55,026 nt of DNA from an uncultured Chitinophagaceae bacterium (GTDB taxonomy: Bacteria; Bacteroidota; Bacteroidia; Chitinophagales; Chitinophagaceae): contig CALLZY010000238.1 of assembly GCA_937858715.1 (NCBI GenBank), forward strand, positions 1 through 55,026. The letters are read 5' to 3'. A program made the position numbers and the translations under genes. The notes beneath the pieces were generated by a model. The model did not search any database, was not told where the DNA came from, and saw only the letters and a program-made list of their open reading frames with translations. The first letter of the stretch is position 1, and each line of letters begins with the position of its first letter. Positions 14,985 through 27,243 of the stretch are shown piece after piece.

Positions 14985-15014
14985 AAAAGAGTACCATTAC
15001 CACCGGTACTCTTT
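14985..15014. terminator. Bidirectional terminator
   Basis: AGAGTACC (14988-14995) and GGTACTCT (15005-15012) form an 8-bp stem, flanked by A's on the left and T's on the right. It would stop the META gene (+) and the end of the RNA-repair operon (-), whose rtcB stop lies just beyond at 15023. Confidence 0.8.
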
Positions 15015-15022
15015 CGCTTTTT

Positions 15023-16492
15023 CTATTCGCCGGTCAGTCCGTCAGACTCTCCTGAATCCCTGTTACGTTCCTTTTTCCAGCTACGGTGTTTAGCACCATC
15101 CATCTTCACAATTTTAGGTGTAAACTTACCCACCACATCCACCAGTGCCTTTTGCGACTGCATTACCACATTTATATCCTTGTAGGCAAACGGAGATTCG
15201 TCGAGTCCGCCTCCCAGCAATTTCACTCCATACTTTTTCAGTTCATCTTTAAACTGCTTATCTGTTACTGAAGCAATGGCCCTTGTACGGCTCATCTTTC
15301 GTCCTGCACCATGCGATGCCGAATTAACAGATGCCGCTTCTCCTTTTCCTTTTACAATGAAACCATCCGCCGTCATAGAGCCGGGAATAATTCCCAATAC
15401 ATCTTTACCTGCAGGTGTTGCTCCTTTACGGTGAACAATTACATCTTTCCCTTCCCAGTTCTCTTTCCACGCAAAGTTGTGATGGTTTTCTACCATCTTC
15501 ACAGGCTTATGTCCCAACTGCTTTGCAATTTTTGCGTGAATAATATGGTGGCAGGCACTGGCATACTCTCCTGCCAGGTTCATGGCATTCCAGTATTCAA
15601 TACCGGCTTCTTCATCCAGCGTAAGCCAGGCAAGATTTTTTGCATCCTGGGGCAAACGCCTTTTGCTGATAGCCAGTTTGGTATAATGGTTGGCGATAGT
15701 GGCCCCTAATGCCCTGGAACCTGAGTGAGTTAAGAAACCCACATATTTTCCCGCATCAAGCCCCAGCACCACATCTCTTTCAGGTATATCTGCCACACCG
15801 AATTCTGCAAAGTGGTTACCGCTTCCGGATGTCCCCAATTGTTTCCATGCCCTGCCATGCAGTTTTTTTAGCAATGGTAACTGAAAGAACAGTTCATCTT
15901 CCATCACATCATGGTTGGCGGCCCGGTCGAACTGGGCACCACTGCCAAACAAGGTAGCTTCACCCAATTCTCTTGCATAGAAAGATTCCTTATCCGTCAG
16001 TTCTTTTGGGTTAATGGAGAATATACTCAGACACATACGGCATCCAATATCCACCCCCACACCGTAAGGGATTACGGCATTATCAGTTGCCAGCACTCCG
16101 CCAATGGGCAAACCATAACCACTGTGTGCATCGGGCATTAACGCACCGGCCACACTTACCGGCAATTTAGCCGCCTGGTACATCTGGTGCATGGCACCTT
16201 CTTCAATATGTTCCTGTCCGAATATATTGAAGTGAATACCTTTCTGGTTTAATGAAATGGTCTGTCCTTCCGCCTCCGGTTCAGGCATCAGTTTTTCAGC
16301 AATGGGCTTCAGTATTTCATCATCCAGGTAGTTCTCAGGAGCATTAAGAATTTGTTTCAATATGCCTAATGCCTCATCTTCTGTATGATGTTTGAATTGT
16401 GTGCACATTGTATGCATCGCCACACTCACTACCGGTCCTTCCGGGTAGCCAATGGCACGGATTTGTTTTCCTGTTAATTTTAGTTTACTCAT
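15023..16492 (-). CDS. rtcB: RNA 3'-phosphate / 5'-OH ligase RtcB
   Basis: This 489-aa protein is read from the ATG at 16492 (MSKLKLTGKQIRAIGYPEGP). The reading to 16516 adds 8 residues that overlap the upstream gene. Metal-binding PDAHSGYGLPIGGVLA and GVGVDIGCRM (with the active-site Cys) are present, as is SHGAGRKMSR near residue 393, whose His is guanylylated in the family. RtcB joins 2',3'-cyclic-phosphate or 3'-phosphate ends to 5'-OH ends and so repairs tRNAs cut by anticodon nucleases. It is the last gene of an operon that begins with an array of tRNA-like genes. Archease and RtcA are not seen. Confidence 0.95.
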   Translation of the reverse strand: MSKLKLTGKQIRAIGYPEGPVVSVAMHTMCTQFKHHTEDEALGILKQILNAPENYLDDEILKPIAEKLMPEPEAEGQTISLNQKGIHFNIFGQEHIEEGAMHQMYQAAKLPVSVAGALMPDAHSGYGLPIGGVLATDNAVIPYGVGVDIGCRMCLSIFSINPKELTDKESFYARELGEATLFGSGAQFDRAANHDVMEDELFFQLPLLKKLHGRAWKQLGTSGSGNHFAEFGVADIPERDVVLGLDAGKYVGFLTHSGSRALGATIANHYTKLAISKRRLPQDAKNLAWLTLDEEAGIEYWNAMNLAGEYASACHHIIHAKIAKQLGHKPVKMVENHHNFAWKENWEGKDVIVHRKGATPAGKDVLGIIPGSMTADGFIVKGKGEAASVNSASHGAGRKMSRTRAIASVTDKQFKDELKKYGVKLLGGGLDESPFAYKDINVVMQSQKALVDVVGKFTPKIVKMDGAKHRSWKKERNRDSGESDGLTGE

Positions 16493-16503
16493 AACACAAG
16501 TGC

Positions 16504-17577
16504 CTAAAGAGGCCAAATTTTTTTTTCATAAAGATTCTCTCTCATCGCAGTTACCAATCTGTTTGCCGCCTGAATATCCGGCTCATCAGGTAGGTCTGAT
16601 TTAGCAAATAATGCAGCAAGATCTTCTTTTAACTTTTCAGCTTGTTTCACCAAATCATCGTATTCGAACTTACCTTGTTTTATATCCAATAAAAAGTTTC
16701 TATCCTGTCTCTTCACATTAATACTCCCTTCGGTAGCTATTTCTTTAGCCATTCGCAAAAGACGAAATACATGCATCATGTTTTTGGAGTCATAATTCTT
16801 TCCATGTGACATGGTTGTATTGTACCTGCTTTCATTTCGCTTTTCTACCCAACCCCAATACTCTTTGTACTTTTTACAATATAAAGAATAGCCATCCTTG
16901 TTGAAGTACAACAATCCAACCGGATATTGGCCTTTTGGGATGCTGCTTAAACAAACATCATTTGCTTCCACCTTCCTCATAACTCCTGAATAAATATGTT
17001 CTTTGGAATAATACAAATTGTAACAATCCCGCAAATGGTTTATAGCAGCCAGCCCAATTTCTTCCTGTTTGTAATTATTTTCTGCAAGAAATTGTTGTAA
17101 CGTGATAGCTTCTTTTTGAACATGAACAAAACAAAAATCCAAAACTGATTTTTTCTCTTTCTCAACCGGGTTTACAATCTTCTTTTCCAGTCCAAATGCC
17201 TTTTTTATTTGTGTATAAGCATAGTTGGCAAAAGTTTGCTCACAAAGCTTAGAAAGAAATATTTCCCGCTTCACCATATTCATTACTTCATGTCTGTACA
17301 AAACACATTCATCCGGAATGTTTAATAACTCCAGGATGTTGGGGTTATTCTTAGCCAGCAATTCAATAAACCGCCTCAGTTCATAGTAAACAATATCATT
17401 GCTTTCGTTTGAAACTTGCGAATAGTAGTCCAAAGAATAAAATATTTCTTTAGGTAAAACAAATACACCCCTGATATCAGTATCAGATGTGGCAGTGTTT
17501 AATCCGTAAGCCTTGCTTCCTACGATAGCTTCAAATATCAACCAGCCCTTTTCTTTTATGTAATCAATTGTCAGCAT
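16504..17577 (-). CDS. RlaP-type nucleotidyltransferase (second copy)
   Basis: This 357-aa DNA-polymerase-beta-fold protein carries VGSKAYGLNTATSDTDIRGVFV at about residues 20-41: the GS motif followed by D-x-D metal ligands. KNNPNILELLNIP follows, typical of the 'RNA repair pathway' nucleotidyltransferase family (PF10127, RlaP). Such proteins are found next to RNA ligases and are thought to add or remove terminal nucleotides during RNA repair. Its stop is 11 nt from the rtcB ATG, and its start overlaps the upstream paralogue by 14 nt. The tight packing argues for one functional unit. Confidence 0.85.
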   Translation of the reverse strand: MLTIDYIKEKGWLIFEAIVGSKAYGLNTATSDTDIRGVFVLPKEIFYSLDYYSQVSNESNDIVYYELRRFIELLAKNNPNILELLNIPDECVLYRHEVMNMVKREIFLSKLCEQTFANYAYTQIKKAFGLEKKIVNPVEKEKKSVLDFCFVHVQKEAITLQQFLAENNYKQEEIGLAAINHLRDCYNLYYSKEHIYSGVMRKVEANDVCLSSIPKGQYPVGLLYFNKDGYSLYCKKYKEYWGWVEKRNESRYNTTMSHGKNYDSKNMMHVFRLLRMAKEIATEGSINVKRQDRNFLLDIKQGKFEYDDLVKQAEKLKEDLAALFAKSDLPDEPDIQAANRLVTAMRENLYEKKIWPL

Positions 17578-18322
17578 TTGTATTTACCATTTTTAAAAAA
17601 AACTTGGTTAAAGCGGAGTTATCTGCTTTGCTTACTCCGAGACTATTTTTTGAACAGTCAAGCAATTTCCATAATTCTTCCATCCATCCGCTCAATTTGT
17701 TGTCAGGCCTGTGAAGATATCTTTCGCCAACTTTTGCTTTGAGCCTTATCAGCTCCCGCAAATAATCTCTTTCTTTTGCATCGATAATACTCATAAGCCC
17801 CTCTATATCCATTGGTAGTACTGACCTATGTCTTACTATCCAATGACAGGAAAGCATAGAACGGATAAGATAAAAAAACGATTTTAGCCTTACTTCTTCA
17901 TTTCCTGTTAACTCCATCCAAAATTTTTTTGCCAACGAGTAATGATGAAAGAAAACAGCAGTAGGGGAGTAGTATTCCTGTATAAGATCTTTAAAATCTT
18001 CTTTGAAATTCTTATCTGCATAGTAGGTTATGGGAGATTGAAACCTTTCTATGAGCGGCGCATTGGATTTTTTTAATAATTGCAGACTTTTTCTCAAGTC
18101 CCACCCTGTTATATCCAGATCCCCATACATATACTCAATGGTTTCTTTATGTTGTGATAAAGACAAATACCAATCCCTTTTATGCATGTATATAAACCGC
18201 ACATCATAGTCACTGTCTGGCGATGGAAAACCCCATGCTCTACTGCCTGTTTCACAGGCAAAAAGGATTTTGACGTTTTCCTTTTGAGCTAATGCTGCAA
18301 GTACATCCTTTATCTTATCCAT
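17564..18322 (-). CDS. RlaP-type nucleotidyltransferase (first copy)
   Basis: This 252-aa protein has the same fold as its neighbour: CETGSRAWGFPSPDSDYDVRFIYM at about 23-46 holds the GS and D-x-D signature. DITGWDLRKSLQLLKKSNAPLIERFQSPI and an all-helical C-terminal half follow. It is clearly diverged from the downstream copy, about 100 aa shorter, and so probably has a different substrate or end chemistry. It lies 49 nt downstream of the slipin gene on the same strand. Confidence 0.85.
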   Translation of the reverse strand: MDKIKDVLAALAQKENVKILFACETGSRAWGFPSPDSDYDVRFIYMHKRDWYLSLSQHKETIEYMYGDLDITGWDLRKSLQLLKKSNAPLIERFQSPITYYADKNFKEDFKDLIQEYYSPTAVFFHHYSLAKKFWMELTGNEEVRLKSFFYLIRSMLSCHWIVRHRSVLPMDIEGLMSIIDAKERDYLRELIRLKAKVGERYLHRPDNKLSGWMEELWKLLDCSKNSLGVSKADNSALTKFFLKMVNTNADN

Positions 18323-18371
18323 ATCCTAAAAGTATTAAACATCCGGCACCCGAATGATGCCGGATGTTATA

Positions 18372-19469
18372 TTATTTACTCACCAATATCTGCTTCAGTT
18401 GCTCCAGCAGTTGTCCGTTTCCGCCTACGCTGATGCTGCTGATTTTGTCGGCAATCTTCTCCACATATTCCATCTCTTTCAGCTTCCACAGCATGGCGTT
18501 TTCTTCCATCAGCTTTGCAGTGTTCAGCAGGCTGCGGGTGCTGGCAGTTTCTTCTCGGCGCATGATAATGTTGGCCTGTGCCTTCTTTTCGGCAACCAGC
18601 ACCTGGTTCATAATCTCCTTTACATCACCCGGCAGGATGACATCACGGATACCAAAACCATTTACGGTCACACCCAGCGCTTCGGCTTTTTCTTTTACCT
18701 GCTGCAATACAAACGGGCCAATGGCTTCTTTTTTGTCCAGCAGTTCGTCAAAGCTGTACCCTGCGATGTATTCCCGCAGTGCCAGCTGCAGTGCCACATA
18801 CAGTTGCTTATCGTATTCCTTATTTTGCACCAGCGCCTTTTCAATATCGGCCACACTATACTGTGCCCAGGCATTGATGCGCAATGCAGCTTTGTCCTTA
18901 GTCAGTATTTCCTGGCCGTTTACTTCCAGTTGCTGCTGGCGCATATCCGCTTTCGCCACATGAATGGTAATGCCGTTTTTCCACCAGTAGTACATACCCG
19001 GCTGCAGCACCTGGACAAACTTACCATCAATAAACAGCACAGCTTTTTCATAGCTCTGCACTTCGTAGCTGCGCACCCAGTTGCTTACCGGGGCTTTGGC
19101 CAGTACGGCACGGTCAATAGCTTCGTCAATATCCACTTTGCTGATGTCTGCACGGATGAAATCGTTTTTCACAACAGATTTCCAGAATGCATAGCGGCCG
19201 GCAGTGAGTACCTGCTTCAGCAAACCGTTTTCGTATTGCAACACAATCTCATTGTCCCTTACTTCAACCACCTGCAGAATATCAGCCAGTGCTTTATCCT
19301 GCAGCAGGATGTTCAGTTCAACCGGCGCCACAAACTGTTTGGTAATATCGTAAATATATACCTGCTCATTCCTCCAGAACCAGTAAGTGCCGGCCAGCAA
19401 CATTTTTTTGTACGCTCCGTTTTTGAACACCAGGGCAACCTGCCAGGCGTTTACTTTTACTTTTTTCAT
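18372..19469 (-). CDS. SPFH-domain (slipin-like) protein of the RNA-repair operon
   Basis: This 365-aa protein starts at the ATG at 19469 (MKKVKVNAWQVALVFKNG). A GTG at 19490 is an alternative start. The central and C-terminal parts fit an SPFH/band-7 domain: LTKDKAALRINAWAQYSVADIEKALV, LQLALREYIAGYSFDELLDKKE, GVTVNGFGIRDVILPGDVKEIMNQVL, then a helical RREETASTRSLLNTAKLMEEN tail. Unlike typical slipins it has no N-terminal membrane helix. Instead, three short repeats of the form vL-x-(A/P)G-x-Y-x-(F/W)W (LLAGTYWFW, LTAGRYAFW, LQPGMYYWW) precede the SPFH domain. It may form a cytosolic scaffold for repair enzymes; that is inference. Confidence 0.83.
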   Translation of the reverse strand: MKKVKVNAWQVALVFKNGAYKKMLLAGTYWFWRNEQVYIYDITKQFVAPVELNILLQDKALADILQVVEVRDNEIVLQYENGLLKQVLTAGRYAFWKSVVKNDFIRADISKVDIDEAIDRAVLAKAPVSNWVRSYEVQSYEKAVLFIDGKFVQVLQPGMYYWWKNGITIHVAKADMRQQQLEVNGQEILTKDKAALRINAWAQYSVADIEKALVQNKEYDKQLYVALQLALREYIAGYSFDELLDKKEAIGPFVLQQVKEKAEALGVTVNGFGIRDVILPGDVKEIMNQVLVAEKKAQANIIMRREETASTRSLLNTAKLMEENAMLWKLKEMEYVEKIADKISSISVGGNGQLLEQLKQILVSK

Positions 19470-19678
19470 TGTTGTTTTGTTTTGTGCCACTAATGGACTA
19501 ATTACACAAATTGATTTGAGCTTCGCTCAAATTTTTGTTTGGCCACAGATGAACACTGCTTAACACAGATTTATTCTCGTAAATCATGTTACTGTTGCCT
19601 GTTTTTAATAAAGTCAGTGCTATTTGCCACCGTGCAAATACGGAACATGAGTATAATAATGTGTGTCAAAACAGTTCT

Positions 19679-19721
19679 GCATTACCTCGTTTACTGTACC
19701 AGTACAATAAACTATTAATGC
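19679..19721 (-). repeat. Nested inverted repeat (two-stem RNA element)
   Basis: On the minus strand, GCATTA and TAATGC enclose a long hairpin in which GTTTATTGTAC pairs with GTACAGTAAAC over 11 bp with a 2-nt loop. The order resembles an acceptor stem enclosing one arm. It lies between the slipin gene and the permuted tRNA-like elements. Confidence 0.5.
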
Positions 19722-19891
19722 GGAAGTGAAATGATATTCACTATTGTTCGTCCTGTTTCAGGTAGTTGCCTGGTTGCGACCTCACCTCCAGATCTCCTCT
19801 CCGATGGAGAGGGCAGAGAAAGGTCGCCAGCAAATAACCCTGACTTTAATTCCTTCACCATTTTCAGAAGCGGTGTACTTCTTACGAATCG

Positions 19892-19962
19892 AAGCATCTT
19901 CAGTGCTTTGCGTTTACCATTTCCGCCATACTTCACCAAGAAGCAGCAGGAATCGAACCTGC
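19892..19962 (-). pseudogene. tRNA-like element in permuted order (class-II-type D arm)
   Basis: Read on the minus strand it begins with a perfect T-arm (GCAGG TTCGATT CCTGC) and the 3' acceptor strand TGCTTCT. A 3-nt TGG and a complementary 5' acceptor strand TGAAGTA (6 of 7 pairs) come next. Then follow TG, a Leu-like D arm (GCGGAAATGGTAAACGC) and a perfect anticodon arm AAGCA-CTGAAGA-TGCTT (nominal anticodon GAA). The 3' half thus precedes the 5' half. Confidence 0.4.
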
Positions 19963-20037
19963 AATTAAAGGCTGTGCTCTAACTAACTGAGCTATCACAT
20001 AAAAATGTGAATGGGGGTTGCACCCATGACACCAGCG
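19963..20037 (-). pseudogene. tRNA-like element in permuted order
   Basis: On the minus strand the 3' half comes first: anticodon-stem strand GCTG, variable GTGTC, T-arm ATGGG-TGCAACC-CCCAT and acceptor strand TCACAT. After a 4-nt TTTT comes the 5' half: acceptor strand ATGTGA (6 bp), TA, a D arm GCTC-AGTTAGTTA-GAGC, A26 and CAGC, which pairs with the GCTG of the 3' half. There is no normal-order acceptor partner for either half. Confidence 0.4.
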
Positions 20038-20086
20038 TTTGGTGATATATGTGCCATTGCAATAACAGCATACAGATAGCTACTGC

Positions 20087-20138
20087 GTCTGCACTGCCAT
20101 GTTCCTTGAAACATGTACCTGGTTTATTACCAACAGAC
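20087..20138 (-). other. Compact two-hairpin tRNA-like RNA element
   Basis: On the minus strand GTCTG and CAGAC close a 52-nt structure. It contains hairpin TTGGT-AATAA-ACCAG and hairpin CATGTT-TCAAGG-AACATG, whose loop resembles a T-loop (TTCAAGG). It may be a shrunken relative of the array elements. Confidence 0.35.
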
Positions 20139-20245
20139 ATATACCTTCTTTAATTGATGTAGTTACATCAATAAAATCTTAAAGAACTTTTATTCATTTG
20201 GACTCCTAAAGCCCTCCTCCGGAGGAGGGGTTTGAGGAGCCCAGC

Positions 20246-21337
20246 TTAATTCATCATCGTTTCGGGCAGGCGAAAACCAATTACTTCTGTTTGCTTTACC
20301 ACTTCTTTCTTTTCCCCCGGATTGGCAATTTCGGCAATCGTCATCGGTTCTTTTATTATGGCATTGTGTCCAAAATGCCTGCTGAGCCGTTGTGCCTTTT
20401 CCACTGACAGTTTTCCGAATTCATAACGGGCAATCAACCGGCCTTGTCTTAACAGGGCATTGTCCACCGATGTAAGCGTACTGTTAAACGTACAGATCAA
20501 CTGCACATTCAGAAAATCGGCCAGCAAACCGTCTGAAATATTCAGCAGGTTACTAACTGATGAGCTGCTGTTGTGCTTTCTGTCCATGATTATGTTTTCC
20601 GCATCCTCAATAATCAAGACTGAACCAGGATTGTCAATGAGCAAATCCATCAGTTCAGGGTTCATTATTTCGCCAGCCGTTGCCGGAGACACCAGTAATA
20701 CCTTTTTCTTTAAACGCCCAATCAGGTATCGCAAATAGGTGGTTTTGCCTGTTCCGGGTAATCCATGGAGCAATACAATGCCCTTATCATTTTTTTTCGT
20801 CAGCCTTGCCTGAATTATCCTGTCCACTTCTTTAAAATCATCCTCGTAAAACAAATCAAGATTAAGTTTTGACTTTCTTATTTCCATGCTTTTCAATTCG
20901 AGACCGTAAGTATCCTTTGATATCAGGTTTATTTCAAACTTCTTTTTCTTTTCCCTTCGCTTAAAACGGCTCGCCTCTTTTACAAGTGTGTTTGCCATTT
21001 CATAATCCTGATGTGTATGCAGTATCTCGCAGTAATCTCCCCCCAGTTCTACAAGACAGTTTTCCTGCAACAGGATTATTGTTGTGCTATACTGGGTTGT
21101 TCTTTTCTTCCTGTTATACATCGAATTTTGAAATATCCCTGTTATTGCGTCTTTGTATTCCGTTCGGATATGCTTCAGCACCTTTTCGGTGTTCACCTGG
21201 CTAACCCAGGTTATACAGGGTACCTGCTGATAGGTATACATATAGTAAGCCTTTGCATCCAGGAAACTGTTCTCAAAAATGCTGTTGGCGTCCATTATTT
21301 TTTGTTGCTTTTCCATATTATTCTTTTTAAACTGCAT
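20246..21337 (-). CDS. AAA+ ATPase of the RNA-repair operon
   Basis: The protein has 363 aa from the ATG at 21337. A TTG at 21361 or an ATG at 21316 are other possible starts. The N-terminal 165 residues are of unknown type (with SFLDAKAYYMYTYQQVPCITWVSQVN). An AAA module follows: Walker A HGLPGTGKTTYLRYLI, Walker B SVLIIEDAEN, sensor-1 LICTFNST and an arginine-finger-like LLRQGRLIARYEFGKLS. The last blocks resemble BCS1/CDC48-type AAA domains. It probably remodels an RNP or protein partner. The gene sits between the YkuK-like gene and the slipin gene, with 117 nt to the former. Confidence 0.83.
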   Translation of the reverse strand: MQFKKNNMEKQQKIMDANSIFENSFLDAKAYYMYTYQQVPCITWVSQVNTEKVLKHIRTEYKDAITGIFQNSMYNRKKRTTQYSTTIILLQENCLVELGGDYCEILHTHQDYEMANTLVKEASRFKRREKKKKFEINLISKDTYGLELKSMEIRKSKLNLDLFYEDDFKEVDRIIQARLTKKNDKGIVLLHGLPGTGKTTYLRYLIGRLKKKVLLVSPATAGEIMNPELMDLLIDNPGSVLIIEDAENIIMDRKHNSSSSVSNLLNISDGLLADFLNVQLICTFNSTLTSVDNALLRQGRLIARYEFGKLSVEKAQRLSRHFGHNAIIKEPMTIAEIANPGEKKEVVKQTEVIGFRLPETMMN

Positions 21338-21478
21338 GATTGTTTTAACCTCATCAATCAACAGTATTTCAATACAAGTTTCATAATTGTCCTTTGTTAA
21401 GCAGAACCAGTGACAGAGAAGATTAACAGCTTATTTCGGTTCAATCCATTCAACCTTCCTCAACACCAGTTCTGATAT

Positions 21479-21964
21479 TTACTGCACCACTTTATTAGCG
21501 CAACTGGAACTGGCAAATGCTTCAGGCTTGGCCCTGAAGGCAAAGCCCATCCCGGTTATATAACCCATGGCTTCTTTCAACGCATCGTTGCTTTTAAAGC
21601 CGGGATTGGTGTTGATGTCGGCATGCACTTCCATGTCCACACCATAACGGCTGAAAATATTGCACAGGTTATAAGCCACTTCTATGCTTTTTCCAACTTC
21701 AGTAAGCATCCTTTCTTTAATACTCATCCGCTGCCGGGTTGTTTCATTGTGTATGTACATAAAACCTCCTTTCCCTTTACGGATGAATACAATTACTGTT
21801 GCAAATTCTGTTTCCCTGCCTTTTACCTGGCTGTCGGTACCAATGCACACTTTCAACTCATGACCAGCTTCTCTCTCCTGCATCAGTACACGGCTAACTT
21901 CTTCAGCAATAGGCACAGTAACCCTCTGTCCGTTTAATTTCCTCCATTGTTTTACCTGTTCCAT
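21479..21964 (-). CDS. YkuK-type RNase H-fold protein (DUF458)
   Basis: This 161-aa protein has the RNase H-like pattern VCIGTDSQVKGRETEFATVIVFIRKGKGGFMYIHNE. The first acidic residue is in GTDSQ, a later Glu is in RMLTEVGKSIEV, and VHADINTNPGFKSNDALKEAMGYI supplies further acidic residues. That matches the YkuK family, predicted to be a nuclease. Its start codon is only 30 nt from the 3' end of the last tRNA-like element, so the array and the protein genes appear to share one transcript. It could trim the tRNA-like RNAs or damaged tRNAs. Confidence 0.83.
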   Translation of the reverse strand: MEQVKQWRKLNGQRVTVPIAEEVSRVLMQEREAGHELKVCIGTDSQVKGRETEFATVIVFIRKGKGGFMYIHNETTRQRMSIKERMLTEVGKSIEVAYNLCNIFSRYGVDMEVHADINTNPGFKSNDALKEAMGYITGMGFAFRAKPEAFASSSCANKVVQ

Positions 21965-21993
21965 TGTTTTCCCATTATGGTATTTTACTTAAG

Positions 21994-22066
21994 TGGTGCC
22001 CCGTGGAATTGAACCACGATATCCGGGATTTCACTCCGGTGCATATATCCATTCTGCCAAAGCACC
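21994..22066 (-). tRNA. tRNA-like, anticodon GAA (Phe)
   Basis: Acceptor GGTGCTT/GGGCACC (7 bp, two G-U pairs), discriminator A, D arm GCA/TGC with GG in the loop, and anticodon loop GTGAAAT. The anticodon stem has an A-C mismatch at 31:39. T-arm is CGTGG-TTCAATT-CCACG. No CCA is encoded. It is the last array member, 30 nt before the YkuK-like ATG. Confidence 0.75.
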
Positions 22067-22138
22067 AGTTATGCCTGTTTCAAATACTGGCTGATTATAC
22101 TTTACTCATTGCCGAATTATATTTGATGCTAAACATGG
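22067..22138 (-). other. 72-nt gap in the tRNA-like array, possible eroded member
   Basis: The gap has exactly tRNA length. The only clear relic is a hairpin GCC-A-GT-ATTTGAA-AC-A-GGC. Read on the plus strand it carries a TTCAAAT T-loop. I cannot build a full cloverleaf. Confidence 0.3.
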
Positions 22139-22209
22139 CGGAAACAGAATGAGTCGAACATTCACCTGATGGTTAACAACCAGCTGTTCTGCCATTGAAC
22201 TATGTTTCC
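22139..22209 (-). tRNA. tRNA-like, anticodon GTT (Asn)
   Basis: Acceptor GGAAACA/TGTTTCC is perfect, discriminator G. D arm GTTC-AATGGCA-GAAC, anticodon loop TTGTTAA and T-arm GAATG-TTCGACT-CATTC are present. The anticodon stem has one C-U mismatch (28:42). It is 71 nt long with a very short D loop. Confidence 0.8.
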
Positions 22210-22213
22210 TTTG

Positions 22214-22288
22214 TTGGCCCGCAGGGATTCGAACCCCGAACTCCCGGTGTAAAAGACCGGTACTCTTATCCAATTGAGTTACGAACCA
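22214..22288 (-). tRNA. tRNA-like, anticodon TTT (Lys)
   Basis: Acceptor TGGTTCG/CGGGCCA has 7 bp including two G-U pairs; discriminator A. D arm ACTC/GAGT, anticodon arm CCGGT-CTTTTAC-ACCGG and T-arm CGGGG-TTCGAAT-CCCTG are well formed. It is among the most canonical members, and Lys(UUU) is the target of PrrC-type anticodon nucleases. Confidence 0.82.
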
Positions 22289-22293
22289 ATATG

Positions 22294-22365
22294 TGATGAC
22301 TGCCGGACTTGAACCAGCAACTTCTATCGTATCAGGATAGCACTCTTCCATTGAGTTAAGTCATC
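22294..22365 (-). tRNA. tRNA-like, anticodon GAT (Ile)
   Basis: Acceptor GATGACT/AGTCATC is perfect, discriminator A. D arm ACTC-AATGGAA-GAGT has a short loop. Anticodon arm CTATC-CTGATAC-GATAG and T-arm GCTGG-TTCAAGT-CCGGC follow. All stems are intact. Confidence 0.82.
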
Positions 22366-22408
22366 ATCAGTTGCCGCTGTGAGATTTTTCACATAAATAT
22401 TTATTTTT

Positions 22409-22494
22409 TGTGTTTATGAATTTCGCTTCGCTACATTTCGAATCAACATCTGCAGCTTATAAGACTTCCGGGTTAACCGTTACTCTAAACCACA
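22409..22494 (-). pseudogene. Degenerate tRNA-like element, nominal anticodon TAT
   Basis: Acceptor TGTGGTT pairs with AAACACA (6 of 7), and a weak D arm with GG is present. The anticodon stem GAAGT/GCTGC (4 of 5) encloses loop CTTATAA. The T-stem is not formed around TTCGAAA, and about 19 extra nt (GTAGCGAAGCG...) separate the T-loop from the 3' acceptor strand. Confidence 0.45.
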
Positions 22495-22499
22495 TTTAG

Positions 22500-22572
22500 T
22501 AAGCCTGGTGAGATTTGAACTCACACTAAATAGTTTCTAAGACTATTGCCTCTCCCGTTGGGCTACAGGCTT
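22500..22572 (-). tRNA. tRNA-like, anticodon TAG (Leu) on a class I body
   Basis: Acceptor AAGCCTG/CAGGCTT is perfect, discriminator A. D arm GCC/GGC, anticodon arm ATAGT-CTTAGAA-ACTAT and T-arm GTGAG-TTCAAAT-CTCAC are intact. The variable loop is only 5 nt (TTAGT), although bacterial tRNA-Leu normally has a long variable arm. Confidence 0.78.
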
Positions 22573-22586
22573 TTTTTATTTCCCCG

Positions 22587-22659
22587 TCGGCCTGAACAGA
22601 TTCGAACAGCTAACCTTGAACGTATTAGGTTTCCGCTCTTACCGTTGAGCTACAGGCCG
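22587..22659 (-). tRNA. tRNA-like, nominal anticodon AAT
   Basis: Acceptor CGGCCTG/CAGGCCG and D arm GCTC-AACGGTAA-GAGC are perfect. The anticodon stem (GAAAC/GTTCA) keeps only three pairs around loop CTAATAC. The T-stem (AGCTG/CTGTT) has a mismatch and a G-U pair around TTCGAAT. An AAT anticodon is not expected in bacterial tRNA-Ile. Confidence 0.65.
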
Positions 22660-22664
22660 GGTTG

Positions 22665-22738
22665 ATGACTCAAAGAGATTCGAACTCTTATCTCCTCATT
22701 CGTAGTGAGGTGTTCTTATTCCGTTGAACTATGAATCA
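22665..22738 (-). tRNA. tRNA-like, anticodon ACG (Arg)
   Basis: Acceptor TGATTCA/TGAGTCA (one G-U), D arm GTTC-AACGGAATAA-GAAC, anticodon arm CCTCA-CTACGAA-TGAGG and T-arm AAGAG-TTCGAAT-CTCTT are all intact. The discriminator is T, unusual for Arg. tRNA-Arg(ACG) is the target of colicin-D-type nucleases. Confidence 0.8.
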
Positions 22739-22742
22739 ATAT

Positions 22743-22836
22743 GTACGACCTTCAGAATTGAACTGAATACACTCATCTGCGATTTACCTTTCAGAAAGAA
22801 AGGGAGATGATTATGTTGCCATTACACCAGGTCGTA
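22743..22836 (-). tRNA. tRNA-like with expanded anticodon arm (TTC, Glu-like)
   Basis: Acceptor TACGACC/GGTCGTA is perfect; D arm GTGT/ACAT and T-arm TTCAG-TTCAATT-CTGAA are intact. Where the anticodon arm should be, a 6-bp stem TCATCT/AGATGA encloses a 26-nt loop. That loop holds a second hairpin CCTTT-CTTTCTG-AAAGG, whose 7-nt loop would carry TTC. Total length is 94 nt. Confidence 0.65.
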
Positions 22837-22847
22837 TTTCGTTTACT

Positions 22848-22920
22848 GGTTGACTCCGGGACTCGAACCCTGTTCTTCCGTTGCACAGACGGATGCTTTA
22901 CCAAATAAGCTAAAGCCAAC
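22848..22920 (-). tRNA. tRNA-like, anticodon GTG (His)
   Basis: Acceptor GTTGGCT/AGTCAAC (one G-U), discriminator C as in bacterial tRNA-His. D stem GCTT/AAGC, anticodon arm TCCGT-CTGTGCA-ACGGA and T-arm CAGGG-TTCGAGT-CCCGG (one A-G mismatch) follow. The linker before the D stem has an extra base, position 37 is C, and no G-1 is apparent. Confidence 0.75.
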
Positions 22921-22926
22921 ATTCAG

Positions 22927-22998
22927 ATGCCAGACTCAGGTTCGAACTGAGAACATCACAGTCAAAGTGTGATATGTTAACCATTACACTATCCGGCA
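22927..22998 (-). tRNA. tRNA-like, anticodon TTG (Gln)
   Basis: Acceptor TGCCGGA/TCTGGCA, D arm GTGT-AATGGTTA-ACAT, anticodon arm TCACA-CTTTGAC-TGTGA and T-arm CTCAG-TTCGAAC-CTGAG are complete. The discriminator is T rather than the usual G of tRNA-Gln. Confidence 0.82.
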
Positions 22999-23004
22999 AT
23001 TAAG

Positions 23005-23076
23005 CGGTTCGTATGAGAATCGAACTCATAGCCTCTGATAGACAATCAGAAATGTTAGCCATTACACTAACGAACC
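23005..23076 (-). tRNA. tRNA-like, anticodon GTC (Asp)
   Basis: Acceptor GGTTCGT/ACGAACC is perfect, with discriminator G as in tRNA-Asp. D arm GTGT-AATGGCTA-ACAT, anticodon arm TCTGA-TTGTCTA-TCAGA and T-arm ATGAG-TTCGATT-CTCAT are present. Position 37 is T instead of a purine. Otherwise it is canonical. Confidence 0.82.
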
Positions 23077-23082
23077 TTTTTG

Positions 23083-23168
23083 TGGACCACAAGTCCCGAT
23101 AGCTATCGGAAGACCCCTTCACTACAGCATTGCAAATGCTATTCGCCTGGCTTGGAACATGGCAGCCC
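23083..23168 (-). tRNA. tRNA-like, anticodon TGC (Ala), T-loop expanded
   Basis: Acceptor GGGCTGC/GTGGTCC pairs fully with wobbles and includes G3-T70, the alanine identity pair, and A73. The anticodon arm TAGCA-TTTGCAA-TGCTG is Ala-like. The T-stem GGGTC/GACTT encloses a 16-nt loop containing the dispersed palindrome CCGATAGCTATCGG instead of a 7-nt T-loop. Confidence 0.6.
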
Positions 23169-23173
23169 AATTG

Positions 23174-23246
23174 TATAGCAGACAGGATTCGAACCTGTAA
23201 CCTCTTCATTCCAGGTGAAGTATCCAACCAATTGGAATGCTGCTAT
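23174..23246 (-). tRNA. tRNA-like, anticodon TGG (Pro)
   Basis: This is the first array member in the transcription direction. Acceptor ATAGCAG/CTGCTAT is perfect, discriminator A. Anticodon arm CTTCA-CCTGGAA-TGAAG and T-arm ACAGG-TTCGAAT-CCTGT are intact. Position 33 is C, where U33 is almost universal, and the D stem is weak. Confidence 0.75.
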
Positions 23247-23345
23247 ATTTTACCCCAATCCCCTAAAGGGGAGTTATTATTTTCCTATTAAACTTTATTT
23301 CAATGACCTTTCAAAATCCCCCTTTAGGGGTTAGGGGTTTTAAAA
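23247..23345. repeat. Inverted repeat pair plus hairpin upstream of the array
   Basis: Two inverted copies of a CCCCTAAAGGGG-containing unit (about 23254-23277 and 23316-23340) flank an AT-rich spacer. They are followed near 23345-23372 by a CCCCGC-AGGTGCA-GCGGGG hairpin. Both look like dispersed intergenic repeats that now form part of the array leader. Confidence 0.6.
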
Positions 23346-23400
23346 GTGTCCCCGCTGCACCTGCGGGGAACACTTTATTCCTCCTTCTGCATCTGATCTT

Positions 23401-23535
23401 TTACCGTAATAAATATTCTGCAGGGTGTATTACCCGGCTGCTGTTGTTTATTTCTTCTGTTTCGTATTCATCTGTTTTATTATCCAGTAAGCTGAAAACA
23501 AAACGGATGACTATTATGGCTATTAAAAACTTCAT
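23401..23535 (-). CDS. Possible 44-aa leader peptide
   Basis: MKFLIAIIVIRFVFSLLDNK starts a 44-aa ORF with a hydrophobic N-terminal segment, preceded by an AAGGAAGG ribosome-binding-site-like sequence. It lies between an upstream terminator-like hairpin and the tRNA-like array. I do not recognise a family, and it could be a chance ORF. Confidence 0.35.
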   Translation of the reverse strand: MKFLIAIIVIRFVFSLLDNKTDEYETEEINNSSRVIHPAEYLLR

Positions 23536-23576
23536 CACATACCTTCCTTTCTTTTATCGATTCAATGAGCATAAAA

Positions 23577-23605
23577 AAACCCGGTCGTTATCGGCGACCG
23601 GGTTT
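23577..23605 (-). terminator. Terminator-like hairpin (second in the leader)
   Basis: On the minus strand the stem CCCGGTCG/CGACCGGG (8 bp) is followed by seven T's. It lies downstream of the 51-aa ORF and upstream of the tRNA-like array. Confidence 0.75.
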
Positions 23606-23626
23606 CCTTAATAAGCACTACTGTAC

Positions 23627-23782
23627 TTATGTATGAACACAATCCGGTCGTTGTTGTTTATTATCACTCATATTACCAATGGGCACAATACTCTCTATCG
23701 CCTCGGCATACCAATAGCAGCTGAGTGATAATGTATCATTCATTGTTTTTCTAAATCGTTTATGTCGTAGCTGCTTCAGCAT
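23627..23782 (-). CDS. Possible 51-aa small protein
   Basis: The ORF starts MLKQLRHKRFRKTMNDTLSL and continues CYWYAEAIESIVPIGN, ending 22 nt before a strong terminator hairpin. An internal ATG would give a 38-aa form. No family is recognised. Its position between two terminators suggests an independent short transcript or an attenuator peptide. Confidence 0.35.
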   Translation of the reverse strand: MLKQLRHKRFRKTMNDTLSLSCYWYAEAIESIVPIGNMSDNKQQRPDCVHT

Positions 23783-23856
23783 TTTTATGTTTTAGTTATT
23801 TAGTGATTCAATCTGTTTCCCTTTTACACAAAACATTTTTATATTCTTTGCCACAA

Positions 23857-23882
23857 TAAAAAAGCCCCGGTTTTGCCGGGGC
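23857..23882 (-). terminator. Terminator-like hairpin (first in the leader)
   Basis: On the minus strand GCCCCGG-CAAAA-CCGGGGC is followed by six T's. It lies about 30 nt after the 30-aa ORF. Confidence 0.8.
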
Positions 23883-23912
23883 CGTGTATATCTTGCATTT
23901 CGTTTCTTCAAC

Positions 23913-24005
23913 TTAGTCTGCAGCATTACATGCCCCGCAATACGTATAGTCCTTCCTGGGACTAAATCCGTTCGCTGTTTCAATATGTAATTGTATGCGC
24001 AGCAT
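23913..24005 (-). CDS. Possible 30-aa leader peptide
   Basis: The ORF begins MLRIQLHIETANGFSPRKDY and ends with a C-x-x-C-containing tail (YCGACNAAD). Its ATG lies about 24 nt downstream of a good promoter match, and a terminator follows. The short transcript could instead be a small RNA. Confidence 0.35.
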   Translation of the reverse strand: MLRIQLHIETANGFSPRKDYTYCGACNAAD

Positions 24006-24028
24006 GTTTTTTAATTTGTTTTGCGTTG

Positions 24029-24061
24029 CAAAGGTGAAACTATTTTTTTGATAGTGCCAAA
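24029..24061 (-). promoter_or_regulatory. Candidate promoter of the tRNA-like array leader
   Basis: TTTG (24058-24061), a 21-nt spacer and CACCTTTG (24029-24036) on the minus strand fit the Bacteroidota TTTG-N19-21-TAnnTTTG promoter with one mismatch. The same CACCTTTGC string occurs upstream of the TonB receptor gene. I see no better promoter between here and the array. Confidence 0.5.
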
Positions 24062-24084
24062 TTTAAATTGAAGAATTTTGAAAA

Positions 24085-24411
24085 TTATTTTTTTTGCTTC
24101 TTCTCGTTCTCTTGAATGCCTTTCAAATCTTGGGCACTTATGATGCCATTAGATTTCAAAATTTGCAAGTACTGGTCAGCCGATAATGGACAGTTTGCCA
24201 AGTCAATAAACTCCTTTTTTTCCAATTTACATTGACGCTTCATCATTCCAATATGAAAATCCTGTAACTCCTTTTCGCCATGGCTAATTTTTGTGTGTAG
24301 AATAAACTTTCCATTGAAAAAGAATTCCAGAAATTTATGATCGCCTTTCGCAGCCGTAAATCCCTTGCTTAACAGGTTTTGGTATGTCTTTTTTGCATCA
24401 AGTACTGGCAT
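24085..24411 (-). CDS. HicA-like small protein
   Basis: This 108-aa protein has the pattern KGFTAAKGDHKFLEFFFNGKFILHTKISHGEKELQDF. It resembles the dsRBD-like HicA toxin layout (G-F-x-x-x-x-G-(D/S)-H-x-x-(F/Y)). An MKRQCKLEKKEFIDLANCPLSADQYLQIL extension follows. The gene overlaps the stop of the upstream HicB-like gene by one base, giving an operon of the kind expected for a HicAB toxin-antitoxin system. The role is inferred, and the extension is not part of classical HicA. Confidence 0.6.
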   Translation of the reverse strand: MPVLDAKKTYQNLLSKGFTAAKGDHKFLEFFFNGKFILHTKISHGEKELQDFHIGMMKRQCKLEKKEFIDLANCPLSADQYLQILKSNGIISAQDLKGIQENEKKQKK

Positions 24412-25337
24412 TAGTCCTCAATATTTTTTACAATTGAATTTATTATAGTTTTAATACGCTTAGCCCTTTCTCCAAGCTTAGAATTTGAAAGTTCATTATA
24501 ACGAGTATAAACAAAATGAAACTCCTCAAAAAAATTCGCCTCTGCCTCGTCAATCGTTTTCCCAGTGCCAACAATGTCTATCATTTCAGATTCAATAACA
24601 TAGTAATCATCTTCTTTTTCTAATTTACATCTAAGTGGGAAGTCCAGTTCATACACTCTATTCCCAAAAACAATTGTGTCGAAAGGAATACCTGGTTCAC
24701 CGTGTTTAGTATCAAAAATTTCCTTGGCAGTCTTTTTAACAATTTTACCTCCCTGCCTTGTCACCTTAATTTTAGCCACTGCATCGTATTCTTCTTTTTC
24801 TTCCTCCTGCTTAATTATTTTGGTGATTAATCTATCCCTAACCTCTGGCTTAAACTTATTGATTTTATATACTGGGGTTATTGTCTTGCCTCTTAGCTCT
24901 ACTACACTAACTGGGGAATTTCCAAAGGTTGTTGCAAACGAATATAAATCCTCAACGATAATATTTCGAGTAGCGGCTTGTGGAATAAGTTTTTTTATTT
25001 CTGCATAATCTCCTTTATGTGCAACTTTCAAATAATTGTCAAATTTATTATTAACGAATTTTCTTTGCTGCAATACATCTCCACTTGTAACGGCTTTCAT
25101 TCTTGGGGTAAAAACAAATTCAGGTATTGCACTACCTACCTTAAATCCAGCAAGTTCAATTTTAAAGTTATCTAAATCAATTGCCCCATCAACCTCTAAT
25201 TGGTGGTTAGCAATATCCTGCAATAACTTCTGTAAGTTTTCAGCAAGTCTAACTAAATATTCAACCGGCAGTGTGTTATACCTGCCGATTTCGCCTTCGA
25301 CTCTTAGATTGACTCCTTTATTAAGGTCAACTTGCAT
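24411..25337 (-). CDS. Large protein with HicB-like C-terminal domain
   Basis: This 308-aa protein is mostly of unknown type. Its last third (EDDYYVIESEMIDIVGTGKTIDEAEANFFEEFHFVYTRYNEL) has the HicB pattern: a strand, then G-x-T-x-x-E-A-x-x-N and a helix. The N-terminal 200 residues contain no recognisable catalytic motif. Coupled to the HicA-like gene, it could be a large antitoxin or sensor. It lies upstream of, and on the same strand as, the tRNA-like array. Confidence 0.55.
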   Translation of the reverse strand: MQVDLNKGVNLRVEGEIGRYNTLPVEYLVRLAENLQKLLQDIANHQLEVDGAIDLDNFKIELAGFKVGSAIPEFVFTPRMKAVTSGDVLQQRKFVNNKFDNYLKVAHKGDYAEIKKLIPQAATRNIIVEDLYSFATTFGNSPVSVVELRGKTITPVYKINKFKPEVRDRLITKIIKQEEEKEEYDAVAKIKVTRQGGKIVKKTAKEIFDTKHGEPGIPFDTIVFGNRVYELDFPLRCKLEKEDDYYVIESEMIDIVGTGKTIDEAEANFFEEFHFVYTRYNELSNSKLGERAKRIKTIINSIVKNIED

Positions 25338-25386
25338 TTTCCTTTTTTTTGTAAATATAGTGGATAGATTTTAAATATTTCTTTGG

Positions 25387-26490
25387 CTAAAACAATCTCC
25401 CCTGTTCTCCCGGCCGCTTAAACAATGAGCGGTTAAGGTGCCATTCCTCTGCATTCATACCATAGAGTTTTCCATACTTTTTATATTGCTGTGCCACCAT
25501 TTTAGCGATATGTCCTTCACCACGCATCCGCACACCCCAGCGGCTGTCGTTTACTTTTCCGCCATGACTTTGCTCCACCAGGTGCCACACTTTATCGGCA
25601 CGGTCAGGAAAATTTTTATACAACCAGTCGTGAAATAAAAATTGAATTGCACCATTCAGCCTGATAAAAGTATAAGCTGTAAACGTAGCACCATTATCTG
25701 CCGCTGCCTTCATGATGCGCTGCATTTCATGTTCATTCAGCCCCGGAATCATAGGTCCCATCATGATACCCATGCGTACACCGGCACTGCTGAGTTCGTT
25801 TATTACTTTCAGTTTTTGTTTAGCAGTGGTGGTTCGGGGTTCCATTGCCCTTCTCAGCTCTTCATTAAAAGAAGTAATAGACACCATTGCTGAAACAATC
25901 TGCTTCTTTGCCATTTCCTGCAGCACATCCTTATCCTTCAGTATCCATGAGTTTTTAGTAAGTATGCCCACCGGCTGGTTAAACTCATTGCACACTTCGA
26001 GCAATGCCCTTGTAAGCCGGTATTTCTGCTCTGCCGGCTGATAACAATCTGTATTGCCACTCAGCATGATGGGTGTGGCATCCCAGTTCTTCTTCATTAA
26101 AAACTTTCGCAGCAGTTGCGGAGCATTCTTTTTTACAATGATCTTTCTTTCAAAATCAAGACCGGCACTATAGCCCCAATATTCATGCACATTGCGGGCA
26201 TAGCAGTAGATGCAACCATGTTCACATCCCGCATATGGATTCATACTGTAACTCATCCCCGTATCGGGGCTGTCAATCTTGTTCACAATAGATTTTGCTT
26301 CCTGCTCCAGATAAACAGTGGGTACGTTTCTTTCTTCCCAATCGTCTATTGCCTCAATATGCTCTTTTGTCGTTTCGTGTTTGTGAAACCGGTTCTTCGT
26401 ATTGAACTGTGCACCGCGGCCGGTAAGATATTGCTCTTCCTGCTTTTTGACTTTCACTTTGAAATGGTCCTGCTTACCTTTTTCAGACAT
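25387..26490 (-). CDS. PA0069-family radical SAM protein
   Basis: This 367-aa protein is read from the ATG at 26490 (MSEKGKQDHFKVK). The longer frame runs back through a terminator hairpin. NPYAGCEHGCIYCYAR contains the CxxxCxxC [4Fe-4S] motif. LSGNTDCYQPAEQKYRLTRALLE and the C-terminal GEGHIAKMVAQQYKKYGKLYG are typical of the SPL-like PA0069 family, whose reaction is unknown. Length and motifs are complete. Confidence 0.87.
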   Translation of the reverse strand: MSEKGKQDHFKVKVKKQEEQYLTGRGAQFNTKNRFHKHETTKEHIEAIDDWEERNVPTVYLEQEAKSIVNKIDSPDTGMSYSMNPYAGCEHGCIYCYARNVHEYWGYSAGLDFERKIIVKKNAPQLLRKFLMKKNWDATPIMLSGNTDCYQPAEQKYRLTRALLEVCNEFNQPVGILTKNSWILKDKDVLQEMAKKQIVSAMVSITSFNEELRRAMEPRTTTAKQKLKVINELSSAGVRMGIMMGPMIPGLNEHEMQRIMKAAADNGATFTAYTFIRLNGAIQFLFHDWLYKNFPDRADKVWHLVEQSHGGKVNDSRWGVRMRGEGHIAKMVAQQYKKYGKLYGMNAEEWHLNRSLFKRPGEQGRLF

Positions 26491-26515
26491 AAAACATTGC
26501 TGGTTTTGTTTGCCA

Positions 26516-26581
26516 ATAAAAAAGAGAGTAAAGAGCAATCCCGCAATATCAAAACTCACAATATCTTACTCTTTACTCTCT
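26516..26581 (-). terminator. Long-stem terminator of the LigT-like gene
   Basis: AGAGAGTAAAGAG (26523-26535) and its exact complement (26569-26581) form a 13-bp stem. On the minus strand T-rich sequence follows, between the LigT-like stop and the radical SAM start. Confidence 0.65.
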
Positions 26582-26628
26582 GTCTTCACACTATCCTTCT
26601 CACATTAATAGTTATTCCCCCTGGTTAT

Positions 26629-27243
26629 TTACCCGAATAAATCGCCTTGCCGGGTAGTAACCGGCAGGTTCTGAAAAGAAAACTTACTGACAACATGGTA
26701 TCTTAATTCACCTTCTGATCTTCGAAGCAGTGTCATTCCATCAGCAATGAAGCGTCCGGTGAAATGCTTGCCACTGTACTCAAGCCATCCTTTTTCATAT
26801 TGCCAGGGTTTCAGCATACGGGCAATTGTCAGATGAGGCTCTGTTATAAAATGAGGCTTGTTATCATCATTTAGTTTCATCAGGCGTTGTGTTTCTGTGC
26901 GAACCGTTTTAACCAGCTGTTTCACAGACAGCTTACTTGCCACATTAATATAGATGGTGTGTGACGGGAAACTGCCAAAGTCTTTCAACTCCACTTTAAA
27001 GGGAGGAAACCCCATAGCAACAGCCTGCAGCCGGTGCAGTATCCTGTCTTCCATCATTGCATGCTGCAAAAAATTCACCAGCGTAATATGAGGCTTGCCC
27101 CACCGGGCATGATCAGATTTGTACGTGTCAGCAAAACTTTCCTTTACTTTCATTATCCTGTCCCACAACTCTTCATGCGGACTTAATACCAGCAGATACT
27201 CATACACTTTATATCCTGGAATAGTGTTTACGATACTTTCCAT
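26629..27243 (-). CDS. LigT-like 2',5'-RNA ligase / cyclic phosphodiesterase (2H family)
   Basis: This 204-aa protein has the two H-x-T motifs of the 2H phosphoesterases: PHITLVNF (His52/Thr54) and EPHLTIARM (near residue 156). Such enzymes open 2',3'-cyclic phosphates or act on 2'-5' RNA links, the same end chemistry that RtcB uses. Its promoter faces the umuDC promoter. A functional tie to the RNA-repair operon 5 kb away is conceivable but only positional. Confidence 0.82.
   Translation of the reverse strand: MESIVNTIPGYKVYEYLLVLSPHEELWDRIMKVKESFADTYKSDHARWGKPHITLVNFLQHAMMEDRILHRLQAVAMGFPPFKVELKDFGSFPSHTIYINVASKLSVKQLVKTVRTETQRLMKLNDDNKPHFITEPHLTIARMLKPWQYEKGWLEYSGKHFTGRFIADGMTLLRRSEGELRYHVVSKFSFQNLPVTTRQGDLFG

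Follow-up and report, generated by a model that had tools for sequence, protein, structure and literature searches.

A tRNA array heading an RNA-repair operon in an uncultured Chitinophagaceae bacterium lies behind tandem candidate attenuator leaders that hold nearly all amino acids

The stretch of DNA analysed here (hereafter the window; 55,026 nucleotides (nt), contig CALLZY010000238.1 of assembly GCA_937858715.1) comes from an uncultured Chitinophagaceae bacterium. On its minus strand and in one direction it carries a tRNA array, genes for a YkuK-type protein and an AAA ATPase, a permuted tRNA-like RNA, and genes for an SPFH protein, two RlaP nucleotidyltransferases and RtcB. Ahead of the array lie two tandem leader modules, each of which consists of a short open reading frame (ORF), an intrinsic terminator and a candidate antiterminator segment within the ORF. 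We consider it likely that the locus is an emergency operon that replaces and repairs tRNA, and that tandem leader-peptide attenuation senses the loss of the tRNAs that it supplies. The original prediction, in which an array of tRNA genes heads an operon for RNA repair, was borne out by ARAGORN, Rfam and Pfam analyses of the window.

That prediction also included a leader with a promoter. A promoter-like element is seen in the sequence at 24027..24061 (minus strand, like all features of the locus), with TTTG(GCAC) and a TTTG-type -7 region that we take to match the Bacteroidota -7 consensus, and similar sequence precedes leader ORF 1 in the related loci L062 and L089; what had been overlooked is the pair of modules. 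Leader ORF 1, read from the sequence (23913..24005), encodes 30 amino acids (aa) of 18 of the 20 types, and at 23931..23940 includes its candidate antiterminator segment, which could pair with the 5′ arm of terminator 1 (23858..23882; hairpin scan and folding). Leader ORF 2 (23627..23782, 51 aa) contains all 20 amino acids, and all 20 also occur before its antiterminator segment (ACGACCGGA, 23643..23651), which in turn could pair with the 5′ arm of terminator 2 (23573..23602; folding). Taken alone, this second segment reaches p = 0.08 against shuffles. In both modules, as in attenuation, a short leader ORF thus lies directly 5′ of an intrinsic terminator, and the alternative antiterminator is mutually exclusive with it, as judged by sequence only.

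Related loci were collected through a search with the second RlaP protein (RlaP2), from which the best 80 of 297 loci were taken. Twenty-five of these were by choice treated as arrays, giving 26 array loci with the window. Loci with four or fewer tRNAs, or with eight scattered ones, were excluded (L097, L104, L111, L120, L122, L125, L131, L132 and L136), and the small arrays of L075 (three tRNAs) and L085 (two) were kept despite their size. Arrays beside the same genes had been proposed as something to look for in related genomes, and they were found in Chitinophagaceae and Flavobacteriaceae in variable order. The order array, YkuK, AAA, SPFH, RlaP, RlaP, with or without RtcB, is present in L062, L063, L065, L066, L075, L079 and L089. 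The full order of the window, RtcB included, occurs in L062, L065 and L089, whose records are assigned to Chitinophagaceae or Sphingobacteriales. Flavobacteriaceae and a few other groups have related but different orders, with up to 20 array tRNAs called (L078), and L195 and L197, from another family of the class, combine an array with YkuK and SPFH. YkuK was rejected as a marker of such arrays: PF04308 matches in 41 of 395 genomes of the phylum, and among the 30 loci annotated an array adjoins it only in the window, L195 and L197.

Leader modules were found near the array in 22 of the 26 array loci, the window included; in the remaining four (L063, L065, L066 and L079) the array stands at the start of the contig. 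Two modules are present in 20 loci, three in L114 and one was counted in L085. After one of the 45 leader ORFs (L078, 13391) had been dropped as spurious, 44 modules remained. In these, the pairing of a terminator arm with the end region of its own ORF averages -11.22 kcal, compared to -7.16 with permuted arms (0 of 5000 permutations), and the own arm beats the mean of foreign arms in 43 of the 44. The segments thus change together with their terminators. Almost all leader ORFs have such a segment close to their end; its distance from the stop codon has a median of 17 nt (interquartile range 13-20), and a terminating ribosome would cover the segment at least partly.

Scanning 100 loci for complete modules gave 65 forward matches and one reverse match, and the same scan over both strands of the whole window returned exactly the two modules described. 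The thresholds of the scan were set after the array loci had been seen, so that the reverse strand and newly searched genomes serve as the independent checks. Some of the forward matches outside array loci, in L145 and once in L160, appear to be due to chance. Searched for on its own, the RNA pattern of module 2 was found in 8 of 195 genomes of the family, and its reversed version in none. Behind it lie tRNAs in seven of the eight (the window, G352, which is L089, G408, G387, G330 with two tRNAs, G201 and G418), and in G300 no tRNAs follow. Hits of this pattern in viral contigs (at least 80 stretches) were set aside as chance, the full module scan there giving two in 714 kb on both strands.

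Leader modules were also observed in other surroundings. L207 has both modules (758-1170), with no array tRNA and no protein of the window found behind them. In L141 (genome G088) modules at 8911-9301 precede AAA, RlaP and RtcB and no tRNA was called, a possible case of array loss. In the Flavobacterium loci L122, L125, L131 and L132, mini-arrays of three or four tRNAs follow one to three leader modules.

The leader ORFs are on average more diverse in content than control ORFs. With no selection by content, amino-acid types exceed expectation by a mean of 1.75 in the 45 leader ORFs, as against 0.59 in 19 control ORFs, and diversity reaches p < 0.05 in 15 of the 45 and in none of the controls. 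The most extreme leader, found in L204 and L205, fits all 20 types into 30 residues (chance about 1.3e-4 per random peptide). L205 belongs to the same genus as L204, and L202 is the same contig as L089; neither L202 nor L205 entered the comparison of leaders with arrays, from which L085 was also excluded. Over 26 loci, with kinship ignored, an amino acid is shared by all modules of a locus in 253 of 261 cases when its tRNA is in the array and in 156 of 233 otherwise; presence in at least one module is seen in 260 of 261 and 212 of 233 cases, respectively. In the 16 loci outside Chitinophagaceae the match for every module, stratified by amino acid and with relatedness ignored, gives z 6.1 (0 of 3000 permutations). 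Trp and Asp, picked out after the data had been seen, illustrate it in these 16 loci: Trp is in every module in 3/3 loci with tRNA-Trp and 0/13 without (p 0.002), and Asp in 10/11 loci with tRNA-Asp and 1/5 without (p 0.013). At a looser tRNA threshold the figures are 3/4 versus 0/12 for Trp and 10/12 versus 1/4 for Asp. Across the 20 amino acids, enrichment in the leaders correlates with frequency in the arrays (rho 0.59, p 0.007).

In the window, ARAGORN identified 10 tRNAs on the minus strand (21993-23076). Eleven elements score above the gathering threshold of Rfam RF00005 (41.0-64.8 bits, threshold 29), the addition being 23174..23246 (53.5 bits), which ARAGORN found at a lowered threshold and which is read as Pro(UGG). 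About 14 tRNA-like genes had been predicted; 11 are solid by RF00005, and the other three are degenerate elements. Both programs call Asp(GUC) (23004..23076), Gln(UUG) (22926..22998), His(GUG) with an extra 5′ G (22848..22920), Arg(ACG) (22664..22738), an element with the unusual anticodon AAU (22586..22659, Rfam 48.1 bits), Leu(UAG) without a long variable arm (22499..22572), Ile(GAU) (22293..22365), Lys(UUU) (22213..22288), Asn(GUU) (22136..22209) and Phe(GAA) (21993..22066). The degenerate elements are an Ala(UGC)-like one interrupted by a palindrome (23084..23168), with uninterrupted counterparts in L062 and L089, a Glu-like one with an extra hairpin in the anticodon loop (22745..22835), similar to L064 3716-3829, and one, earlier read as TAT, within a gap (22366..22498) that drew no ARAGORN or Rfam call. 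At a lowered ARAGORN threshold L062, L075 and L079 contain possible counterparts of the Glu-like element with four-base anticodons.

With 150 of 236 candidates scored, 47 tRNA matches were obtained in the genome of the window (G000), and 36 of these fall outside the array. ARAGORN, run on the stretches that surround these 36, called tRNAs for every amino acid except Ile, and Ala was represented by GGC only, with no Ala(UGC) tRNA. The missing Ile and Ala(UGC) genes may sit in unassembled rRNA operons. Nine of the ten window elements have a mean identity of 0.72-0.93 to their array cognates in other Chitinophagaceae (the AAU element, with a single comparison, 0.61), and the eight that have a housekeeping cognate in their own genome have one of 0.55-0.68 to it. 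Since the array tRNAs are nearer to the array cognates of other genera than to their own housekeeping cognates, the set is probably old and separate.

Features of charging identity were scored over 25 loci with 270 tRNAs, of which four isolated ones were removed; the remaining 266 include nine from neighbouring clusters in L070, L072 and L078. Three without a standard amino acid were left unscored for the discriminator base, for which the cognate housekeeping tRNA of the window's genome was the reference, and that of Ile was assumed to be A. The discriminator equals that of the cognate in 233 of 263 elements (shuffled mean 114.8; 0 of 5000 shuffles reach 233), in 86 of 92 elements of families with a discriminator other than A, and in 8 of 10 in the window, where Arg and Gln differ. 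U33 is retained in 257 of 266. All 26 Ser and all 14 Tyr elements have a long variable arm, while 22 of the 25 Leu elements do not. Of the 18 His elements, 17 have a single additional 5′ nucleotide that begins with G, versus 14 of the 258 remaining elements with a spacer of this kind; this would be expected for G-1 of tRNA-His, the exact register being a reading. G3:U70 was seen by eye in 4/4 Ala elements, in L074 only with the 3′ arm shifted by one. Because cloverleaf, U33 and charging-identity features are retained, the elements are read as functional replacement tRNAs rather than decoys.

Two further peculiarities of array RNAs were recorded. In L089 the Gln (3474-3568), Lys (3815-3907) and Asn (3995-4087) tRNAs are about 20 nt longer than normal; splicing of these inserts was considered and set aside, the Gln insert being a palindrome in the variable region. 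In the Flavobacteriaceae loci L068, L069 and L086, recurring stretches of about 70-100 nt that are alike and are not tRNAs lie between the array tRNAs, and several of them hold CTGTCTCT- or TCTCA-type motifs.

These parts suggest the following course of events. Transcription would start upstream of both short leader ORFs. As long as charged tRNAs are ample, the ribosome would reach the stop codon and cover the antiterminator segment, the terminator would form and the operon would stay off. When a charged tRNA is lacking, for instance after cleavage by an anticodon nuclease, the ribosome would stall earlier in the leader; the segment, left free, would pair with the 5′ terminator arm, and RNA polymerase would read through. 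As the leaders hold nearly all amino acids, and especially those with a tRNA in the array, the switch would respond when nearly any tRNA supplied by the array is lost, and two modules in series would form a double lock. The sensor thus appears to be the leader peptides rather than the array. Once on, the presumably co-transcribed operon would supply spare chargeable tRNAs and, in the window, the RtcB ligase; the two RlaP nucleotidyltransferases could restore lost nucleotides, and YkuK, AAA, SPFH and the tRNA-like scaffold would be supplied as well.

Several observations weigh against this reading. Only 21 of the 44 modules have a segment whose complementarity reaches p < 0.05 against shuffles (median 0.05). 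Some leaders are ordinary, with 14-16 types (modules of L068, L070, L082 and L086), down to 14 in 44 residues. Of 851 small ORFs from 13 loci that include one duplicate contig, 16 hold all 20 types, and 8 of the 16 are not leaders. The leader codons do match the supply of the operon, as in attenuation, but in the 10 Chitinophagaceae loci the match is not significant (z 1.1-1.2; 545-849 of 3000 permutations), because leaders there hold nearly everything, and at the codon level it is mixed, with Leu and Arg as expected and Ile opposite. Five further loci on their own gave nothing significant, and the 16 non-Chitinophagaceae loci fall into large-array and small-array subgroups. When 19 amino acids are taken singly, only Trp and Asp, the pair chosen in hindsight, are below 0.05, uncorrected (His 0.050). 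Thr tRNA is in no array, though Thr occurs in leaders, and part of the array elements of the window are decayed.

Gene arrangement adds to these points. Among the 22 loci with modules, RlaP2 lies downstream of them in 9 and upstream in 13; in the latter the leader would control the array and not RlaP. RtcB too is upstream of the leader in L071 and L074, and within the window a hairpin with a weak T tail (18368-18338) separates SPFH from RlaP. Most loci with an RlaP pair have no array, only 25 of the best 80 of 297 having been taken as such. In the order, 45 of 298 genomes match RlaP, and none of the 20 fetched around the RlaP pair shows an array by ARAGORN. G253, which is among the 20, does have three array tRNAs beside YkuK and SPFH immediately outside the fetched stretch (L209), and G088, with its leaders but no tRNA called, is another of the 20.

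Other explanations were weighed against the same data. The array RNAs could draw anticodon nucleases away, as decoys or sponges, or be bait for the ligase, and charging would then be unneeded. The degenerate and unusual elements, such as the 22 Leu elements that lack a long variable arm, the Glu-like anticodon-loop hairpin and the palindrome inserts, would suit such a role, but the discriminator base is retained family by family, as is the additional 5′ G of His, and these matter for charging and not for the binding of a nuclease to the anticodon arm. We regard this explanation as unlikely, and a role as decoy, sensor or ligation substrate, which the original prediction had put forward, was not supported as the main function of the array. 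About equally unlikely is a response to ribosome stalling in general, for instance by antibiotics, in which rich leaders merely spread the stall sites. It draws support from Anabaena, where repression of the trn array and rtcB by TrcR is, according to the parts of the report used here, lifted by elongation antibiotics (PMC10272220); a general stall sensor would, however, have no need for leader content that tracks the array, as it does for Trp and Asp especially.

That the leader ORFs encode small proteins with a function of their own, their terminators merely ending upstream transcripts, seems less probable still: the sequence of leader 1 is alike across Chitinophagaceae, as such proteins would be, but the tandem layout, the narrow terminator distances and the joint change of segment and terminator argue otherwise. 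Least of all do we favour an ordinary tRNA cluster of phage or plasmid origin that lies beside repair genes by chance, which we think very improbable. Phages are described, in the portion of the source consulted, as bearing tRNAs together with RNA ligases and RlaP (PMC7824862), YkuK relatives occur in 78 phage records, and one of three such neighbourhoods has three tRNA genes within 4 kb. None of the three, in which many genes are unnamed, has an annotated RtcB, RlaP or dense array, however. Although 582 phage records match the array, none covers 80% of the query and the 20 best matches listed cover 7-8%; arrays with leaders moreover recur across families. Acquisition with a phage had been raised alongside the original prediction, and no phage source came to light in the phage records searched. 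We keep to the replacement and repair of tRNA under leader-peptide attenuation as the preferred reading of the locus.

The protein genes of the window had been named from their translations, and Pfam supports these names. They encode a YkuK-type RNase H-fold protein (21479..21964; PF04308, 7.6e-38), an AAA ATPase (20246..21361; PF00004, 8.2e-11), a slipin-like SPFH/Band_7 protein (18372..19469; Pfam; an alternative GTG start is possible at 19490), RlaP 1 (17564..18322; PF10127, 1.1e-65), RlaP 2 (16504..17577; PF10127, 1.2e-27) and RtcB (15023..16492; PF01139, 4e-79). The terminator predicted at the end of the operon corresponds to a terminator-like hairpin 3′ of rtcB (14985..15015; hairpin scan). 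RtcA, RtcR and Rsr were not found among the 10 proteins scanned (15026-27243), and PADLOC models of known anti-phage defence, run on 8 proteins, gave one weak match only, for AAA (mad8, 2.1e-4).

Further degenerate tRNA-like elements had been predicted after the AAA gene. They were located at about 19900..20030, between AAA and SPFH, where circularly permuted tRNA-like modules (T-arm, acceptor-like hairpin, D-arm) appear to be chained into an RNA that resembles YrlA. Compensatory pairing is seen in its relatives, and in the window the final unit is degenerate. In eight sequences of this RNA 95.6% of the cells pair, and the covariation score is 0.68 as compared to 0.10-0.20 for slid versions, in an alignment two rows of which have the D-arm displaced by one position. 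By folding energy the RNA does not surpass shuffles, leaving covariation as the support. The threshold of the YrlA family RF02553 (69 bits) was not reached by the window (30.8 bits), L062 (30.1 and 32.6) or L073 (30.3).

Between leader module 2 and the array lies a small hydrophobic ORF of 44 aa (23401..23535; MKFLIAIIVIRF...HPAEYLLR). Counterparts of 44-45 aa that end in HPAE..LR or similar were observed in L062, L064 and L089, and a less similar one in L075. Upstream of the locus, 25387-27243 on the minus strand encodes a radical SAM protein (rSAM, PA0069 family) and a LigT/2′-5′ RNA ligase-like protein, which occupy the same place in L062; L089 retains rSAM and two unnamed proteins (p308 and p108) there. 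A second YkuK copy is found elsewhere in the genome of the window (contig C216:21007-21423).

In attenuation of the trp, his and ilv type, codons of a leader ORF sense a shortage, an antiterminator hairpin competes with the terminator, and the genes under control cure the shortage. As far as can be read from its letters, the window shares the leader ORF and the alternative hairpins, and its genes would likewise cure the shortage. The known leaders of this type are enriched for a single amino acid or a few, whereas those of the type described here hold nearly all 20, are tandem and precede tRNA genes and RNA repair. Burroughs and Aravind (2016) are said to have described repair systems of RlaP, RtcB and SPFH with nearby tRNA-like RNA, a multi-tRNA array and leader peptides reportedly not being part of them; in the window, RlaP, RtcB, Band_7 and tRNA-like RNA are present together. 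In the open-licence literature no report was found of a pan-amino-acid leader linked to a tRNA array, or of a tRNA array with RtcB in Bacteroidota.

The nearest described case is the trn operon of Anabaena PCC 7120. In the parts of the report used here, its large array is induced by translational stress, TrcR represses the array and rtcB, and a table of that report lists a gene for a slipin and one for an AAA ATPase among those raised in the absence of TrcR (PMC10272220). Both systems link an extra tRNA array with these genes and rtcB; in Anabaena, as far as this source goes, the array is on a megaplasmid, rtcB on the chromosome and the repressor of the ribbon-helix-helix type (PMC10272220), whereas the window has one locus with attenuator-like leaders. 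The Salmonella rsr-yrlBA-rtcBA operon, under the CARF-domain protein RtcR, is described in the sections consulted as regulated by damaged tRNAs (PMC7790460). Like it, the window combines RtcB with a tRNA-like RNA; it lacks RtcA and Rsr among the proteins scanned, and those sections mention no tRNA array for Salmonella. RlaP is reported, in the portion of its source drawn on, to restore missing bases beside RNA ligases (PMC7824862). Mycobacteria, their plasmids and phages carry dense arrays of spare tRNAs, considered a putative antidefense system (PMC5966550, PMC12803027); the window resembles them in its dense spare tRNAs, and the parts of these papers used here mention neither a repair operon nor such a leader.

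On balance we lean towards a closed-loop surveillance of the tRNA pool, in which tandem near-pangram leaders would probe almost all charged tRNAs. A ribosome that fails at any one of the codons would release a matching replacement kit, joined in some lineages by RNA-repair enzymes, and leaders would gain and lose codons along with the tRNAs of the array. If true, this would bring together spare tRNA arrays, RNA repair and leader-peptide attenuation, which are usually separate fields, and would offer a testable reason for tRNA arrays to adjoin repair genes. It would also suggest how a cell can sense the loss of any tRNA without one dedicated receptor per tRNA, by means of what would be a natural pan-amino-acid stall reporter.

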